The notes under the pieces were generated by a model. It had not been told where the DNA came from and did not search any database. It was given only the letters and a program-made list of their open reading frames with translations. From Sorangium aterium (lineage in GTDB: Bacteria > Myxococcota_A > Polyangia > Polyangiales > Polyangiaceae), in NCBI RefSeq assembly GCF_028368935.1, contig NZ_JAQNDK010000006.1, forward strand, positions 215,001 to 279,000: a stretch of 64,000 bases of DNA, written 5' to 3'. A program made the position numbers and the translations under genes. This document shows, in pieces, positions 39,683 to 48,456 of this stretch (within the stretch, counting starts at the first letter, position 1; the number at the start of each line of letters is the position of its first letter).

Positions 39683-40900
39683 CTAGAAGCGGACGTGCAG
39701 CGCCGTCATCCCGCGGAGCTTGGTGTTGGGCCCCCATGTCGGCTCCGGGGTCGCGAGCTCGAGCCGCGGCAGCCGGCGCAGCAGCACCGAGAAGGCGATC
39801 TCGAGCTCGGTGATGGCAAACAAAGACCCGAGGCACGCATGCGTGCCCCGGGCGAACACCAGGTGCGGGTTGTGCTTCCGCGTGATGTCCAGCCGGTCCG
39901 GCTCCGGAAACACCTCGGGGTCGCGGTTGACGGCGCTCAGCACGACGGACAGCCGATCCCCCTTGCGGATCAGCTTGCCCCCGAGCTCGAGATCCGTGAG
40001 CGCCCAGCGCTCCACGCCCCGCTGTACAGGCGACGCGTAGCGAAGCAGCTCCTCGACGGCGCTCTGCATCAGCTCCGGGTGGGCTCGAAGCAGCGTCAGC
40101 TGATCGGGATGCGAGAGCAAGGTGTACACGCCAGCCGAGATCATCCGGGCCGTCGTTTCGAAGCCGGCGTAGAAGAGCAAGCTGAGGTTCGACAAGAGCT
40201 CCGGAAACGCGAGCCGATCGCCGTGGTCCTCGGCGGAGAGCAGCGCGCTGATCAGATCGGCGCCCGGGCGCACCTGCCGCTCGGCGATCCATCGGCTCAG
40301 GTACTCTCGCGCGGCGCCATCGGCGGCTTCGCCCTGCTGTCGCACCGCCGGCGGTTGAGCCTGATCGAACTGCAGATGAATTCCGGGCATCCACGCGCGA
40401 AGTAGCTCTCGCTCCGATGCCGGCAAGCCCATCAGCTCACAGAGCACGTTCGTCGGCAGGGGATACGCGTAGTCGGCCATGATGTCCATGTGCCCGTCCC
40501 CCTCGACGCGATCCACGAGCTCATGCGCGACCTGCTCGATCCTCGACCGGAGGCGCTGGATCGCCTCGCGCGTGAGCACCTTGCCGACGAGGGAACGCAC
40601 CCGGTCATGCTCGGGTGGATCCAGCTCTATCATGTTCTGGGCCCACGGGCATGATCCGGAGGTGTGGCGCGGGGGGAAGGCCATGAGCTTTTCACGTTGT
40701 GTGGTCAAGCGCCTGTCGGCCAGGACGAGCTTCGCGTAGGAATATTTCGTGATCCACCATTCCCCTACCGAAGCGACGAAATGGACCGGCGCTTCCGCCC
40801 GGAGGCGTGCATAGAGCGGGTAGGGGTCCGCCACGAAGGCAGGATCCAGCGCTTCGAAGCTGTCGACTGACCATTCCTTGTGCGTGACCGCGGATGTCAT
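39683..40900 (-). CDS. Cytochrome P450, second of a tandem pair
   Basis: 405 residues. Helix-I motif YAGFETT (244-250), E-x-x-R in AVEELLRY (281-288), and the heme loop VFARGTHACLG with Cys near 356 identify a bacterial class I P450 of CYP107-like length. The first Gly of the usual FGxG heme loop is Ala. ATG 40900 overlaps the stop of the first P450 in an ATGA, so translation is coupled; the GGAGGAAG in the upstream gene's end is its ribosome site. By eye the two P450s are well over 80% identical. Redox partners are not in the window. It ends the four-gene oxidative operon. Confidence 0.93.
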   Translation of the reverse strand: MTSAVTHKEWSVDSFEALDPAFVADPYPLYARLRAEAPVHFVASVGEWWITKYSYAKLVLADRRLTTQREKLMAFPPRHTSGSCPWAQNMIELDPPEHDRVRSLVGKVLTREAIQRLRSRIEQVAHELVDRVEGDGHMDIMADYAYPLPTNVLCELMGLPASERELLRAWMPGIHLQFDQAQPPAVRQQGEAADGAAREYLSRWIAERQVRPGADLISALLSAEDHGDRLAFPELLSNLSLLFYAGFETTARMISAGVYTLLSHPDQLTLLRAHPELMQSAVEELLRYASPVQRGVERWALTDLELGGKLIRKGDRLSVVLSAVNRDPEVFPEPDRLDITRKHNPHLVFARGTHACLGSLFAITELEIAFSVLLRRLPRLELATPEPTWGPNTKLRGMTALHVRF

Positions 40901-42132
40901 CTTCTTCCTCCGGCCTGGAAACGGACGTGCAGCGCCGCCATCCCGCGGAGCTTGGTGTTGGGCTCCCATGTCGGCGCCGGGGTCGCGAGCTCGAGCCGCG
41001 GCAGCCGGCGCAGCAGCACCGAGAAGGCGATCTCGAGCTCGGTGATGGCGAGGAAGGAGCCCAGGCACGCGTGCGTGCCCCGGGCGAACACCAGGTGCGG
41101 GTTGTGCTTCCGCGTGATGTCCAGCCGATCGGGCTCCGCAAACACCTCGGGGTCGCGGTTGGCGGCGCCCAGCACGATGGATAGCCGATCCCCCTTGTGG
41201 ATCAGCTTGCCCCCGAGCTCGAGATCCGTGAGCGCCCACCGCTCCATCCCTCGCTGCCCGGGCGACGTGTAGCGCAGCAGCTCCTCGACGGCCGTCTGCG
41301 TCAGCTCCGGGTGGCCTCGAAGCAGCGTCAGCTGATCGGGATGCGAGAGCAAGGTGTACACGCCAGCCGAGATCATCCGGGCCGTCGTCTCGAAGCCGGC
41401 GTAGAGGAAGAACGTGAGGTTCGACAAGAGCTCCGGGAGCGCGAGCCGATCGCCGTGGTCGTCGGCAGAGAGCAGCGCGCTGATCAGATCGGCGCCCGGG
41501 CGCACCTGCCGCTCGGAGATCACCCTGCTCAGGTACTCTCGCGCGGCGTCATAGGCCTCTTCACCCTGCTGCCGCACCTCCGGCGGTTGAGCCTGGTCGA
41601 ACTTCAGATGAATCCGGGTCGTCCACGCGCGAAATTGCTCTCGCTCCGATGCCGGCAAGCCCATCAGCTCGCAGAGCACGAACGTCGGCAAGGGATACGC
41701 GTAGTCGGCCACGACGTCCATCCGCCCGTCCCCCTCGACGAGGTCCACGAGCTCGTGCGCGATCTCCTCGATCCTCGACCGGAGGCGCTGGACCACCTCG
41801 CGCGTGAACGCCTTGCCGACGAGGGCGCGCACCCGGTCATGCTCCGGCGGATCCAGCTCCATCATGTTCGGGGTCCATGGGCAGGATCCGGAGCCGCGGC
41901 GCGGGACGACGGCCATGACCTTTTCACGTTGTGTCGTCAAGCGCCTGTCGGCCAGGGCGAGCTTCGCGTAGGAATACTTCGTGATCCACCATTCCCCTAC
42001 CGAGGCGACGAAATGGACCGGCGCTTCCGCCCGGAGGCGCGCGTAGAACGGGTAGGGGTCCGCCACGAAGGCGGGATCCAGCGCGTCGAAGCTGTCCACT
42101 GAGCATTCCTTGTGCGTGACCGCGGATGTCAT
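40897..42132 (-). CDS. Cytochrome P450, first of a tandem pair
   Basis: 411 residues from ATG 42132, with CAGGAG 8 nt upstream. AGFETT (245-250), ExxR (E283-R287) and FARGTHACLG with heme Cys356 mark a bacterial P450. It probably hydroxylates or desaturates the small-molecule product of the operon. The nearest relative is its own neighbour: differences are scattered substitutions, denser around 70-90 and 165-200 (B-C loop and F-G region, which line the substrate pocket), hinting at changed substrate position. It lies 75 bp after the Rieske gene, same strand. Confidence 0.93.
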   Translation of the reverse strand: MTSAVTHKECSVDSFDALDPAFVADPYPFYARLRAEAPVHFVASVGEWWITKYSYAKLALADRRLTTQREKVMAVVPRRGSGSCPWTPNMMELDPPEHDRVRALVGKAFTREVVQRLRSRIEEIAHELVDLVEGDGRMDVVADYAYPLPTFVLCELMGLPASEREQFRAWTTRIHLKFDQAQPPEVRQQGEEAYDAAREYLSRVISERQVRPGADLISALLSADDHGDRLALPELLSNLTFFLYAGFETTARMISAGVYTLLSHPDQLTLLRGHPELTQTAVEELLRYTSPGQRGMERWALTDLELGGKLIHKGDRLSIVLGAANRDPEVFAEPDRLDITRKHNPHLVFARGTHACLGSFLAITELEIAFSVLLRRLPRLELATPAPTWEPNTKLRGMAALHVRFQAGGRR

Positions 42133-42207
42133 CGTCTTGCTCCTGATTCCTCCTGATCCACCGGCGACCGAGCTCCGGAGCCGGTGCGTGCCGGTGGACA
42201 CGCGCGT

Positions 42208-43335
42208 TCACCTCGCGAGGAAGTCGTCGAGCGCGCGGTGAAACCGGATGGGCCCGAGCTCGAAGCGGCCGAACGTGACGACCTGGTTCGCGCCGGAGCG
42301 CAGCCCGCTCTGGATCGACGTCACCCTCCTGAAGTCTTCGTCCAGTGTCGTCTCGAAGCTCTCTCTGTCTGCTCTTGTATGGCGCACCTCGCGCTCCGTC
42401 TGCGGGACGCGGGCGGCGCTCGCCCACGTGCGCCAGAGCGTCCGATCCAGGCTGCTCGGAAACACCGTCTGGAGAATGGTCGGCCCTTCTCGTAGCATGA
42501 GGACGGTATTGGGAAATATCAGATAGACGACATTCGCGACGGAGAGGAGATCCCAGCTCGCTGGATCGCGGTCCAGGCACGCGTTGATCCTGTTTCTGGG
42601 GACGATCATGCGCTGGTGGGGATAGAAGTCGTCATGCAAGGCGATATTGTCGTGCAACCAGGGTGCGATCGTCTGCGCGTGCGTCTTCCGGAAGTGATAG
42701 ACCTCGAATGCCACTTCCATGAGGAGCTTCCAGTTCGCGTTGGGCGAGAAGGTGAGCTGATATGCCGGCTGGAGGCGCGAGAGGTTCCAGCCGGCGAGCT
42801 CTTGCGCGAGGGGACCCAGAAAAGCGTCCAGATCCGGCCCAGGATCGGTCCACACCATGCCGAACTTCACCCGCACAGGGAACGGGGTGAGCGCGGTGCG
42901 TTCGCAATGCCCCTCGGCAAAGCCGTAGGCGTGCGGGACGTGCAGCAGCTTGCCATCGAGCCCATAGGTCCATCCGTGGAAAGGGCACGTGAAGGAGCTC
43001 CGGGCGACGCCCGTCGGGCCGTCGAGGAGCCGGGCACCTCGGTGGCGACAGACGTTCAAGAACCCCCTGATCTGGCCCTCCTTGTCGACGCAAAGCAGGA
43101 TCGGCGCGCCCAGCCCGTCGTGGGTGACGTAATCGCCCGGCCTTTGCAGGAGCGCCGCGCTCGTCAGGACGATGGGGTAGCGCTGGAACAGCTGCCCTCG
43201 CTCCCTCTCGAGCCGCGTCGGTGACGTGTAGATGTCCACCGGCCTCTGCTCCGGCTCCGCGTCCATGTCCGTGGTCCGCCGCTGGATCAGATCGAGCGTG
43301 CGCCGTATCAGCGTCACCTGCTCCGCATGCTTCAT
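42208..43335 (-). CDS. Rieske non-heme iron oxygenase, alpha-type subunit
   Basis: 375 residues. The Rieske cluster is Cys96-x-His98 (CRHRG) and Cys117-x-x-His120 (CPFHGWTY). The catalytic iron site is the EVYHFRKTH segment (His214, His219) with an acidic residue expected near the C-terminus. Such enzymes do O2-dependent hydroxylation, N-oxygenation or demethylation and need a reductase, which is not in the window. ATG 43335 lacks a clear ribosome site. It sits 130 bp after the aminotransferase-like gene and 75 bp before the P450 pair, all minus strand. Confidence 0.92.
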   Translation of the reverse strand: MKHAEQVTLIRRTLDLIQRRTTDMDAEPEQRPVDIYTSPTRLERERGQLFQRYPIVLTSAALLQRPGDYVTHDGLGAPILLCVDKEGQIRGFLNVCRHRGARLLDGPTGVARSSFTCPFHGWTYGLDGKLLHVPHAYGFAEGHCERTALTPFPVRVKFGMVWTDPGPDLDAFLGPLAQELAGWNLSRLQPAYQLTFSPNANWKLLMEVAFEVYHFRKTHAQTIAPWLHDNIALHDDFYPHQRMIVPRNRINACLDRDPASWDLLSVANVVYLIFPNTVLMLREGPTILQTVFPSSLDRTLWRTWASAARVPQTEREVRHTRADRESFETTLDEDFRRVTSIQSGLRSGANQVVTFGRFELGPIRFHRALDDFLAR

Positions 43336-43465
43336 ACAGGCTGGAGAGCGGGCTCAGGCGCTGGTACCAGGGGTTCCAGGATCTCCCGCTGCGTGTCGAT
43401 CAGGCAGGCAGGGACGGGTCTCGGTCCTCGGGGCTCCATTCCCGGAACCTTGAGCAAACTCTCGG

Positions 43466-44674
43466 CTAAGCAAGCTCCGAGAGCTCGACCTGGCGCACCG
43501 CCGGCGCCGCCGTCATGGAGGGCTCCTCCCTGCGGCGCGGGCTCATCAGGGCGTCGAGCTGCTCGATGAAGCAGCTGTTCTCCGCCGGCAGGCCGACGGT
43601 CACGCGGAAGTATTCATCGTATCGCTCGTCGCCGAACGGCTCGAAGGCCTTCACCTTCACGCCTCGGGCGAGCAGCGCGTCGTGGATCTTCGCCCCGGAC
43701 CACGCCCCGCGCGCGCGGCACAGGATGAAGTTGGTCTGTGACGGATAGGCCTCCAGAGCGCGATGAGCTCCGATGGCTGCCATCAGCCTGGCTCGCTCCC
43801 TCGCTGTCTGATGCCGGACGAATCCGAGGTGTCCGCTGTCCTGGAGCGACGCCATCGCGAGCTCCGCGGCCAGCTGCCCGACGCGGTGCGGCGTCATCTT
43901 GGCCTCCATCTGCGCCACCACCTTCGCGTTCCCCATGGCGTACCCCACGCGCACCGACGCGAGCCCGTAGGCGAAGGAGAAGCTGCGCAGCACCATCAGG
44001 TTGGGATGGCGCAGCACCAGGTCCGCCATCCGGGTGTTCGGGCTCTCCTCGAGATAGTGCACGTAGGCTTCGTCGATGAAGAAGAGGGATTTCGGGAACC
44101 GGGTGAGCAGCGGACCGAGCTCCTGCCTCGTGATGAGGACGTTGCCCGTGGGGTTGTTGGGGTTGCAGAGGTAAACCAGGCCGTCCTGCCGCGAGAGGCG
44201 CGACTCGAGCATGTTCATGTCGAGCGCGAAGCCGTTCTCCGGGCAGAGCGGGAGCAGCTCGCATCGCAGCCCCACGCGGACACCGGAGGCAGGCACCTTG
44301 GAGTAGGTGAGCCGCGTGGTGATGATGGGATACGCCGTGCGCTTCAGCAAGAAGCGCAGCGTTCGCATCGCCGAACGCTTGATCTCGCGCTCGATCAGGA
44401 ACGGGATGCAGGTCTTGAGCAGCGGGCCGCTCCCGTTGGCGACCAGCACGTTCTCCGGCCTGACGCCCGCGTCCGCGGCGAGCGCGCGCCGGAGATCTCC
44501 GTTGTCTCCGGCCGGGTAGCTCCGCAGCGAGATGTTGCCGGCGTGGCGCCGCAGGACGTCCGCGCACCGCTCGGAACAGTACGTGCCGTGGTTCAGCGCC
44601 ATGTCGATGGGCGGCGCGCCGGACCGGCGAACCGGGGCGATGGGTGCGTTGCTCGCTGTCGTTCGAGGCTGCAT
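43466..44674 (-). CDS. Aminotransferase-fold (class I/II, HisC-like) protein lacking the PLP lysine
   Basis: 402 residues. The fold-type I pattern is clear: NGSGPLLK (80-87), NPNNPTGN (171-178, cofactor-ring Asn region), FIDEAYVHY (199-207, Asp201/Tyr204) and a C-terminal YFRVTVGLP with the substrate-carboxylate Arg. Where relatives have S-x-S-K-A-x-G-L-A-G-x-R, this protein has SFSFAYGLASVRVGYA, so the Schiff-base Lys is Phe234 (codon TTC). Histidinol-phosphate-type transamination is therefore not expected. It may bind a ligand, act as a partner or use a different mechanism. ATG 44674 has GGGAGGAG 8 nt upstream. First gene of the operon. Confidence 0.85.
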   Translation of the reverse strand: MQPRTTASNAPIAPVRRSGAPPIDMALNHGTYCSERCADVLRRHAGNISLRSYPAGDNGDLRRALAADAGVRPENVLVANGSGPLLKTCIPFLIEREIKRSAMRTLRFLLKRTAYPIITTRLTYSKVPASGVRVGLRCELLPLCPENGFALDMNMLESRLSRQDGLVYLCNPNNPTGNVLITRQELGPLLTRFPKSLFFIDEAYVHYLEESPNTRMADLVLRHPNLMVLRSFSFAYGLASVRVGYAMGNAKVVAQMEAKMTPHRVGQLAAELAMASLQDSGHLGFVRHQTARERARLMAAIGAHRALEAYPSQTNFILCRARGAWSGAKIHDALLARGVKVKAFEPFGDERYDEYFRVTVGLPAENSCFIEQLDALMSPRRREEPSMTAAPAVRQVELSELA

Positions 44675-45095: not shown

Positions 45096-45473
45096 TCACG
45101 GACTGATCGCTGTCCCGACTGTCGCGTTCCCGACTGTCCCCGTCGTCGCCTTGACGCCCGGGGTTTGTCGCACGGCCTTCCAGTGGCAATAGCACAGGTA
45201 CGGCGGGTTGATGCGACACTCGAACCTGTCGATGCAGTACGGAGAGAGCCCCCAGCAGTCTGACGACAGCGTTCCACCCTCGCACGTGCAGCTTCCGTCT
45301 TCGCTGCACCACCAGCTGAGCGAACCAGTGCCCCCACCGTTGTTCACGAGCGCCTCTGTCACGGCCGTCGTCTCCTCCGGAGTGGTCGCTTCTTCGGGGG
45401 CTACGACGCAGCCGGCCAGGAGGCCGGAGGCAAGAGACAAGACGGCGAGCGCGGCGCGAAGGGTATTCTTCAT
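45096..45473 (-). CDS. Small Cys-rich lipoprotein
   Basis: 125 residues. The signal peptide ends in LLAGC (Cys22). A Thr/Glu-rich linker leads to a compact Cys-rich region (WWCSEDGSCTCEGG, SSDCWGLSPYCIDRFECR, YLCYCHWK) with eight or more cysteines and many aromatics. It resembles small disulfide-rich secreted myxobacterial lipoproteins; function unknown. ATG 45473 has AAGGAG 8 nt upstream. Confidence 0.75.
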   Translation of the reverse strand: MKNTLRAALAVLSLASGLLAGCVVAPEEATTPEETTAVTEALVNNGGGTGSLSWWCSEDGSCTCEGGTLSSDCWGLSPYCIDRFECRINPPYLCYCHWKAVRQTPGVKATTGTVGNATVGTAISP

Positions 45474-45579: not shown

Positions 45580-45673
45580 GTTGAGCGGAACCTCGCTCAC
45601 TTGCGCGCGTAGTTGAGCGGAACCTCGCTCACTTGCGCGTGGTTAAGCGGAACCTCGCTCACTTGCGCGCATA
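45580..45673. repeat. Three tandem units of about 31 bp
   Basis: GTTGAGCGGAACCTCGCTCA plus CTTGCGCGC and 2-3 variable bases, starting at 45580, 45612 and 45642 (the third has GTTAAG). There are no variable spacers, so it is a minisatellite. Each unit contains TGAGCG and CGCTCA, an imperfect hairpin. Confidence 0.88.
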
Positions 45674-45833
45674 GCCGCGCATCGCGAGCGGCATCCTGAG
45701 GATGCCGCCCGCGCCCTCGCCGGCGCTCCGCCGGTCCCGGGCTGCGGTCGCGAGCTCGGGCACCGGATGAACGAGAGCGTCGCGCAACGAAGCGGACCAT
45801 CGCGCCCATCGGGTCGTGGCCTTGCGCGACCGC

Positions 45834-47319: not shown

Positions 47320-47802
47320 CGGATATGCGCGTTCGCCTCGGTGTTCCCGCCATGGTCCTTGTCGTGTAGATCTGTCGTGCATCACAGCCGACTGCGACGC
47401 CGGGCACAGGATGGCGTCTCCGGCGAGAGGGCGCGGCTGTCGCATTCGTAGCTCGGTGGACGGCCGGCGCCGTGCCCGGCTTGCGCCAGACCGGTCTTTG
47501 GCCGCCCCCGTCCAGACCCGGCGTGCACCTTTCGTCATGCACCGGGATCTCCATCCATGTTCGTGGCGAAGCAGGGTTCGCGCATCCACCCCAGCTTGTG
47601 CCGTTGCAGCGCGGCTGAGGCCGAATGCATGGCAGAGCTCGCGATGCTCATCGAGGCCTTCGGGACCGAGCGGGACCACGCGCTTGCCTCGCGTTTCGAG
47701 TTCCGCCACACGCCGAAGCACACGAGCTCGCCGAGCGCCGCCGAGATATGGGTCGACGCGGATGCGACGAGGTGGTACGCGTACGGACTTCAGGAGTGCA
47801 AC
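47320..47802. other. Gene-free region between the amidase and the MEDS gene
   Basis: About 480 bp. Open frames on both strands lack ribosome sites and recognisable motifs. It should contain the MEDS gene promoter. Confidence 0.4.
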
Positions 47803-48456
47803 ATGGCGCCATCACGCACGCGAAAAGTGAGTCTCTGCGGCAAGGAGCTTCATGGCCTGCAGCACATCTGCGCGTTCTTCGATTCGCGCAAGGAAATGTA
47901 CGACGTCCTCAATCCGTACTTCCAGGAAGGAATCGATATCGGCGACGAGGTGGTGACCATCCTCGAGTCGAGCGTACATGACGACCATGTAAATCGGATG
48001 CAAAAGGGCGGCGTGCCGGTGCAGGACGCGATTCAGCGTGGCCAGCTCAAGGTCGTGCCTTCCGAGCAGACGTACCTCCAGGACAACGTGTTCGTCGCGG
48101 ACCGCATGCTCTCGACGCTCGAGGGCGTGCTCCAGGGCGCAGCCGAAGGCGAGTTCAAGTCCGTTCGCACCTGCGGCGACATGGAATGGGCGCTGAAGAG
48201 CCTGCCGGGCACCGAGGACCTGATGGTCTACGAAGCAAAGGTGAACACGCTGGCGCCCAAGCACGACTGCACGCTCCTTTGCTGCTACGACGTCAATCGC
48301 TTCAGCGGCCGGGTGATCGCCGATGTGCTCGCCACGCACTCGCACGTGATCATCGGCGGCCACGTGCACGAAAATCCGTACTACCTCGACCCGGTGACGT
48401 TCCTGAAGAAGCTCGCGCTGCGGCGAGCGCCGGCGCCTCTCGCGAACGCGGGCTGA
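47803..48456 (+). CDS. MEDS-domain (DcmR-type sensory) protein
   Basis: 217 residues. HGLQHICAFFDSRKEMYDVL, FQEGIDIGDEVVTI, then a charged HVHENPYYLDP end match the MEDS (methanogen/methylotroph DcmR sensory) domain, a RecA-like fold thought to bind small ligands. Here it stands alone, without the helix-turn-helix of DcmR or an attached histidine kinase. It probably works in trans with a signalling partner. ATG 47803 has CAGGAG 7 nt upstream; longer in-frame starts lie in non-conserved sequence. Confidence 0.82.
   Translation: MAPSRTRKVSLCGKELHGLQHICAFFDSRKEMYDVLNPYFQEGIDIGDEVVTILESSVHDDHVNRMQKGGVPVQDAIQRGQLKVVPSEQTYLQDNVFVADRMLSTLEGVLQGAAEGEFKSVRTCGDMEWALKSLPGTEDLMVYEAKVNTLAPKHDCTLLCCYDVNRFSGRVIADVLATHSHVIIGGHVHENPYYLDPVTFLKKLALRRAPAPLANAG

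Follow-up and report, generated by a model that had tools for sequence, protein, structure and literature searches.

In textbooks, PLP enzymes are recognised by the lysine that holds PLP as a Schiff base. In the 3-dehydratases ColD and E1, which belong to the sugar-aminotransferase lineage, a histidine takes the place of this lysine, and the enzymes are PMP-dependent and form no internal aldimine. SPT1/LCB1 is the Lys-less subunit of serine palmitoyltransferase, in which other active-site residues are lost as well (PMC6148460), and Rv3778c of M. tuberculosis is a Lys-less relative of PLP enzymes that is retained and expressed (PMC12910592). In the open literature searched, we found neither a published Lys-less HisC family nor a known Sorangium cluster. 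Here, we show by sequence comparison that a Myxococcota clade of HisC/CobD-like proteins lost the Schiff-base lysine once, to phenylalanine, kept the rest of the predicted pocket for cofactor and substrate and gained a lysine, K126, together with a basic helical insertion.

The four-gene locus

The whole stretch analysed (the window) comprises 64,000 nucleotides of Sorangium aterium (contig NZ_JAQNDK010000006.1, positions 215,001 to 279,000 of the forward strand), and the positions given below are counted within it. Four minus-strand genes with uninterrupted frames lie between 39683 and 44674, in the order AT, Rieske, P450a and P450b, where AT stands for the aminotransferase-like gene and its product:

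43466–44674, minus strand: AT, aminotransferase-like protein of 402 aa, a fold-type I HisC/CobD relative in which Phe234 replaces the PLP lysine
44297–44299, minus strand: codon 126 of AT, AAG (Lys), in a TYxK motif, candidate migrated lysine
43973–43975, minus strand: codon 234 of AT, TTC (Phe), counted from the gene start at 44674, the Schiff-base lysine position of HisC/CobD relatives
42208–43335, minus strand: Rieske non-haem iron oxygenase alpha subunit, GbcA/CntA-like, 375 aa
40897–42132, minus strand: P450a, bacterial cytochrome P450, PikC/EryF/CYP107-like, 411 aa, with intact haem-Cys motif
39683–40900, minus strand: P450b, cytochrome P450 of 405 aa, whose ATG overlaps the end of P450a by 4 bp

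Pfam places AT in Aminotran_1_2 (3e-33), the Rieske gene in Rieske plus Ring_hydroxyl_A and both P450 genes in p450. The intergenic spacing is 130, 75 and -4 bp, as the earlier note on this DNA had it, and from this spacing we infer that AT, the Rieske gene and the two P450 genes are close enough for co-transcription. The cluster contains neither a ferredoxin nor a reductase gene.

A reading of the 130-bp gap between AT and the Rieske gene (43336–43465) gives LIDTQREILEPLVPAPEPALQP, visually reminiscent of the start of IS5-type transposases; a transposase remnant there was rejected, because Pfam gave no match and the genome contains no second copy. Just upstream of AT and on the same strand, a short ORF (45096–45473, 125 aa) encodes a Cys-rich lipoprotein-like product with a lipobox, WWCSEDGSCTCEGGT..., for which no Pfam family was found. 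A 33-nt repeat, GTTGAGCGGAACCTCGCTCACTTGCGCGCGTAG, stands upstream of the cluster in three head-to-tail copies (45580–45674), and a MEDS-domain sensory protein (PF14417) is encoded at 47557–48456, divergent from an amidase gene.

Replacement of the Schiff-base lysine by phenylalanine

Residues 228–247 of AT read VLRSFSFAYGLASVRVGYAM, with SF where the HisC relatives carry SK; the sequence RSFSFAYGLASVRVGY of AT stands against RTFSKxYGLAGLRVGY, typical of the Lys-type relatives, i.e., SFSF is found where relatives have SxSK. The Schiff-base lysine in SxSK that characterizes HisC is missing from the window AT and from 23 relatives, all of which have Phe234. Together these make 24 distinct sequences after copies of the same contig were dropped, with about 35% identity or more, and position 234 is Phe in 24/24 of them and Lys in all 80 of the more distant HisC/CobD-like relatives. 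Searching 379 Myxococcota genomes with a threshold of E <= 1e-60, a criterion independent of residue 234, recovered an AT relative in 18 further genomes, with Phe in 18/18. Further Phe-type relatives came from the family search (G383, 67% identity, and G395), and a scan of 84,980 species gave, among the matches listed, four Phe-type loci, L025 (62% identity) and L026–L028, all in Myxococcota. The Phe-type clade has thus far been found only in this phylum, among the matches listed. The presence of this Phe in 23 other distinct sequences excludes chance and sequencing error for the Lys-to-Phe change, and decay at codon 234 is excluded by these relatives together with the intact frame.

On a quick tree, the Phe-type ATs group together in one clade (support 100) on a stem 1.68 changes per site long. 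A single change in the Lys/Phe label at position 234 suffices, which points to a single origin, and a Bacteroidota group is among the nearest Lys-type sequences. The distribution is patchy: within the window's own family, 3 of 108 genomes have a Phe-type AT, in another class 12 of 71 do, and none was found in the five other members of the window's genus. Judged by the alignment and the tree, the loss of the lysine is fixed among the orthologues (24/24, one origin), which places AT among the Lys-less fold-type I proteins.

What the clade has kept and gained

Guided by what is known of HisC and AspAT, we took nine sites to be pocket sites: Y53, S82, Y124, N174, D201, Y204, S233, R242 and R357. 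Seven of the nine (Y53, Y124, N174, D201, Y204, S233 and R357) are fully invariant in the clade, against a background of 34 invariant sites among 357 aligned (enrichment p about 1e-6). Of the other two, R242 is retained in 23/24 members, and S82 is S or T. The same sites are conserved in the Lys-type proteins too; the point is therefore their retention after the lysine had been lost. The kept pocket speaks for predicted cofactor binding, with the caveat that folding or dimerisation could by itself preserve such residues.

Position 126 carries Lys in 24/24 Phe-type sequences vs 0/80 Lys-type sequences, and K126 is the sole invariant lysine of the clade. Other signature residues, not found in the Lys-type proteins, are G30, R51, N58, G83, R264 and F356. 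A basic helical insertion bearing S101 and R104 likewise distinguishes the clade, being missing from the Lys-type proteins. AT has dN/dS values of 0.35 and 0.26 against its two nearest orthologues, indicating purifying selection. The AlphaFold2 model of AT (pLDDT 85) aligns along its entire length with HisC (Z 39.8, 333 residues) and with CobD (Z 38.5); AT has the fold-type I fold and conserved PLP pocket residues. Because the pocket is kept, signature residues are present, dN/dS is low and the model matches along the whole chain, we consider that the AT protein, as read from its sequence relatives, was repurposed once and then retained, and that the clade likely retains a B6 pocket as a predicted cofactor site.

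The earlier note had claimed that SFSF replaces SxSK, that the rest of the active site is kept and that the lysine loss is a retained repurposing. Alignment with the HisC/CobD relatives bears out the first claim, the seven invariant pocket sites and the near-constant R242 agree with the second, and the third is supported by a single-origin clade of 24 sequences with its kept pocket and purifying selection. It had also named two findings that would speak against it, a Lys-bearing orthologue and a sequencing error; neither turned up, as every clade member has Phe at position 234 and the residue is common to 23 other distinct sequences. In the sequences compared here, the Lys-to-Phe change is older and more widespread than the earlier note could see.

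The oxygenase genes and the question of an operon

The Rieske protein has all of its ligands, CxH...CxxH at 96–120 and the iron-site HxxxxH at 214–219, as had been stated earlier. Its best NCBIfam match is GbcA (87 of 670 bits, far under the equivalog cut-off), and CntA is among its best PDB matches. Both P450s carry the haem-cysteine motif FARGTHACLG together with ELLR (ExxR) and AGFETT (AGxxTT), and in both the sequence is closest to the PikC/EryF group. They had been called nearly identical, which does not hold at 85.7% protein identity; with a dN/dS of about 0.5, the sequences indicate a tandem duplication of fairly recent date whose copies have begun to diverge. No close relatives of the window Rieske and P450 proteins were found in 284 Myxococcota genomes; Rieske relatives at 33–38% identity occur in some Polyangiaceae, in other gene settings. 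One of these, in another Polyangiaceae genome (L141:8162-10508, 36% identity), adjoins an acyl-CoA dehydrogenase-like gene.

The same four-gene order was sought in other myxobacteria and was found nowhere else: a conserved four-gene operon was not found in the 108 family genomes or in 284–379 genomes drawn from the phylum, the gene set being repeated in none of the genomes examined, and no Rieske or P450 gene neighbours any of the AT relatives. Because the gene order was found in no other genome examined and the AT relatives are without Rieske or P450 neighbours, we regard the "oxidative operon" as an arrangement local to this genome, with a tie to AT function that is only putative; since the set occurs nowhere else, co-function of AT with the oxygenases is unsupported by conservation. 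The earlier view of AT as a functional part of an oxidative operon is accordingly left unsupported, and it is weakened by the note's own proviso that the genes should not always be separate elsewhere. A small-molecule product of the cluster is putative, and so is any role of the Rieske and P450 genes. Of the earlier interpretation, the lysine loss as a retained repurposing is supported and the functional oxidative operon, as stated, is not. The unusual residue at position 234 is real and more significant than was claimed, and the operon is less so.

Gene neighbourhoods of AT in other genomes

A PlsC-type acyltransferase, a GlpD-like FAD enzyme or an SDR lies within 2 kb of AT at 13 of the 24 clade loci, several of which are close kin and some of which are on contigs too short to reveal neighbours, vs none of 76 Lys-type loci, a control taken from genomes of other phyla with neighbour queries drawn from the clade itself. 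The PlsC-type acyltransferase is found at six clade loci and the GlpD-like FAD enzyme at six, and at L117, L164 and L027 the genes run PlsC-AT-GlpD in order on a single strand. The neighbour genes differ from locus to locus. Because the neighbours vary, several loci are close kin, the queries are clade-derived and the control is imperfect, we treat the lipid link as a lead only; the linkage of the clade AT to acyl- or glycerolipid-type genes is suggestive only.

The closest orthologue, at L137, overlaps by 4 bp with the gene of a 142-aa membrane-type protein and is divergent from an OlsB/FeeM-like N-acyltransferase. At L025:6284-9721, a single frame of 1145 aa, with an NAD-binding domain, a class III aminotransferase and DUF6206, is divergent from the AT orthologue. 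Immediately upstream of the AT relative of L105, and in the same orientation, is a B12-binding radical SAM gene (BchE/HpnJ-like; L105:4516-6051).

Possible mechanisms

Four readings of the mechanism fit the sequence, i.e., PLP/PMP chemistry or the carrying of an aldimine without a lysine, migration of the lysine to K126, a scaffold, and PMP catalysis. We favor the first, in which AT would be a functional B6-binding protein, with PLP/PMP or a substrate-amine PLP-aldimine held non-covalently, and its chemistry or substrate hand-over would proceed without Lys234. The ancestral setting of the clade would be acyl- or glycerolipid metabolism. More weakly, AT may be co-transcribed here with the Rieske and the two P450 genes, an amine- or lipid-like substrate being handled by AT and oxidised by them. 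We hold this explanation as a whole, from the Lys-less clade and non-covalent B6 use to the lipid origin and the local oxidative partnership, only tentatively, at somewhat short of even chances. That the clade consists of active B6 enzymes, with the lysine moved to K126 or with lysine-free, non-covalent PLP/PMP, which serve an undescribed Myxococcota lipid pathway, is a bolder proposal that we regard as unlikely.

AT might instead work from PMP without an internal aldimine and pass electrons or an intermediate to neighbouring redox enzymes. There is fold-type I precedent for a replaced lysine in ColD and E1, and oxygenases do neighbour AT here; however, Phe cannot serve as a base as His can, AT is of the HisC and not of the sugar-aminotransferase lineage, and its redox neighbours are not conserved, which makes this a very improbable account. 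A migrated lysine, in which Lys126 (TYxK) would replace Lys234 as the internal aldimine former or catalytic base, draws on the strict partition of K126 between Phe-type and Lys-type sequences and on its position two residues past Y124, which aligns with the HisC tyrosine that we take to stack on PLP. However, K126 may sit behind the ring near D201; the aligned HisC position is Met or Gln, and we know of no listed cofactor contact of that residue. The kinases WNK1 and POMK give a precedent, their lysine having migrated with activity retained (PMC10211241); on balance we judge the migration to K126 to be improbable. Finally, AT could be a non-catalytic partner or scaffold, either a ligand carrier or a pseudo-subunit paired with an enzyme that still has its lysine; among Lys-less fold-type I proteins, SPT1/LCB1 (PMC6148460) and Rv3778c (PMC12910592) give precedents for such roles. 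Elsewhere in the genome there are five more HisC-like matches, of which at least four are Lys-type, and the L025 orthologue is divergent from the class III aminotransferase fusion. No linked Lys-type HisC partner for a heterodimer was seen in the clade loci read, though, and the pocket conservation of AT exceeds the needs of a scaffold, SPT1 having lost active-site residues beyond the lysine (PMC6148460); we consider the scaffold rather unlikely. Having fixed Phe once, long ago, with the rest of the pocket kept and one invariant lysine gained, the clade makes it directly testable whether a fold-type I enzyme can do without its lysine or move it, and it hints at a possible unrecorded lipid pathway of Myxococcota.

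Comparison with known systems

AT resembles HisC/HISN6 and CobD in its fold-type I architecture over the full chain (Z 38–40, 22–26% identity in structural alignment) and in N174, D201, Y204, S233, R242 and R357, which are kept in the clade; it differs from them in Phe for the Schiff-base lysine, the new invariant K126 and the inserted basic helix. It scores 197 bits with the HisC equivalog TIGR01141 (cut-off 276.6) and 153 bits with the CobD equivalog TIGR01140 (cut-off 290.6), and every NCBIfam equivalog score of AT is below its cut-off. The PMP dehydratases ColD and E1 share with AT the replacement of the lysine in a fold-type I protein, but by His and in a sugar-aminotransferase lineage. 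The window Rieske protein shares with CntA a Glu ahead of the YH motif, yet it stands at 87 of 670 bits and without an adjoining reductase gene, in contrast to the carnitine and glycine-betaine monooxygenases CntA and GbcA. SPT1/LCB1 is, like AT, a Lys-less fold-type I protein, and it is lipid-linked (PMC6148460), but it belongs to the AOS family, has lost other active-site residues and has a Lys-bearing partner, whereas the AT pocket is kept and no linked partner was seen. Rv3778c differs in its cysteine desulfurase lineage and is judged non-catalytic (PMC12910592). The AT clade joins an already known class, the Lys-less fold-type I proteins, as a variant not previously recorded in the literature searched.
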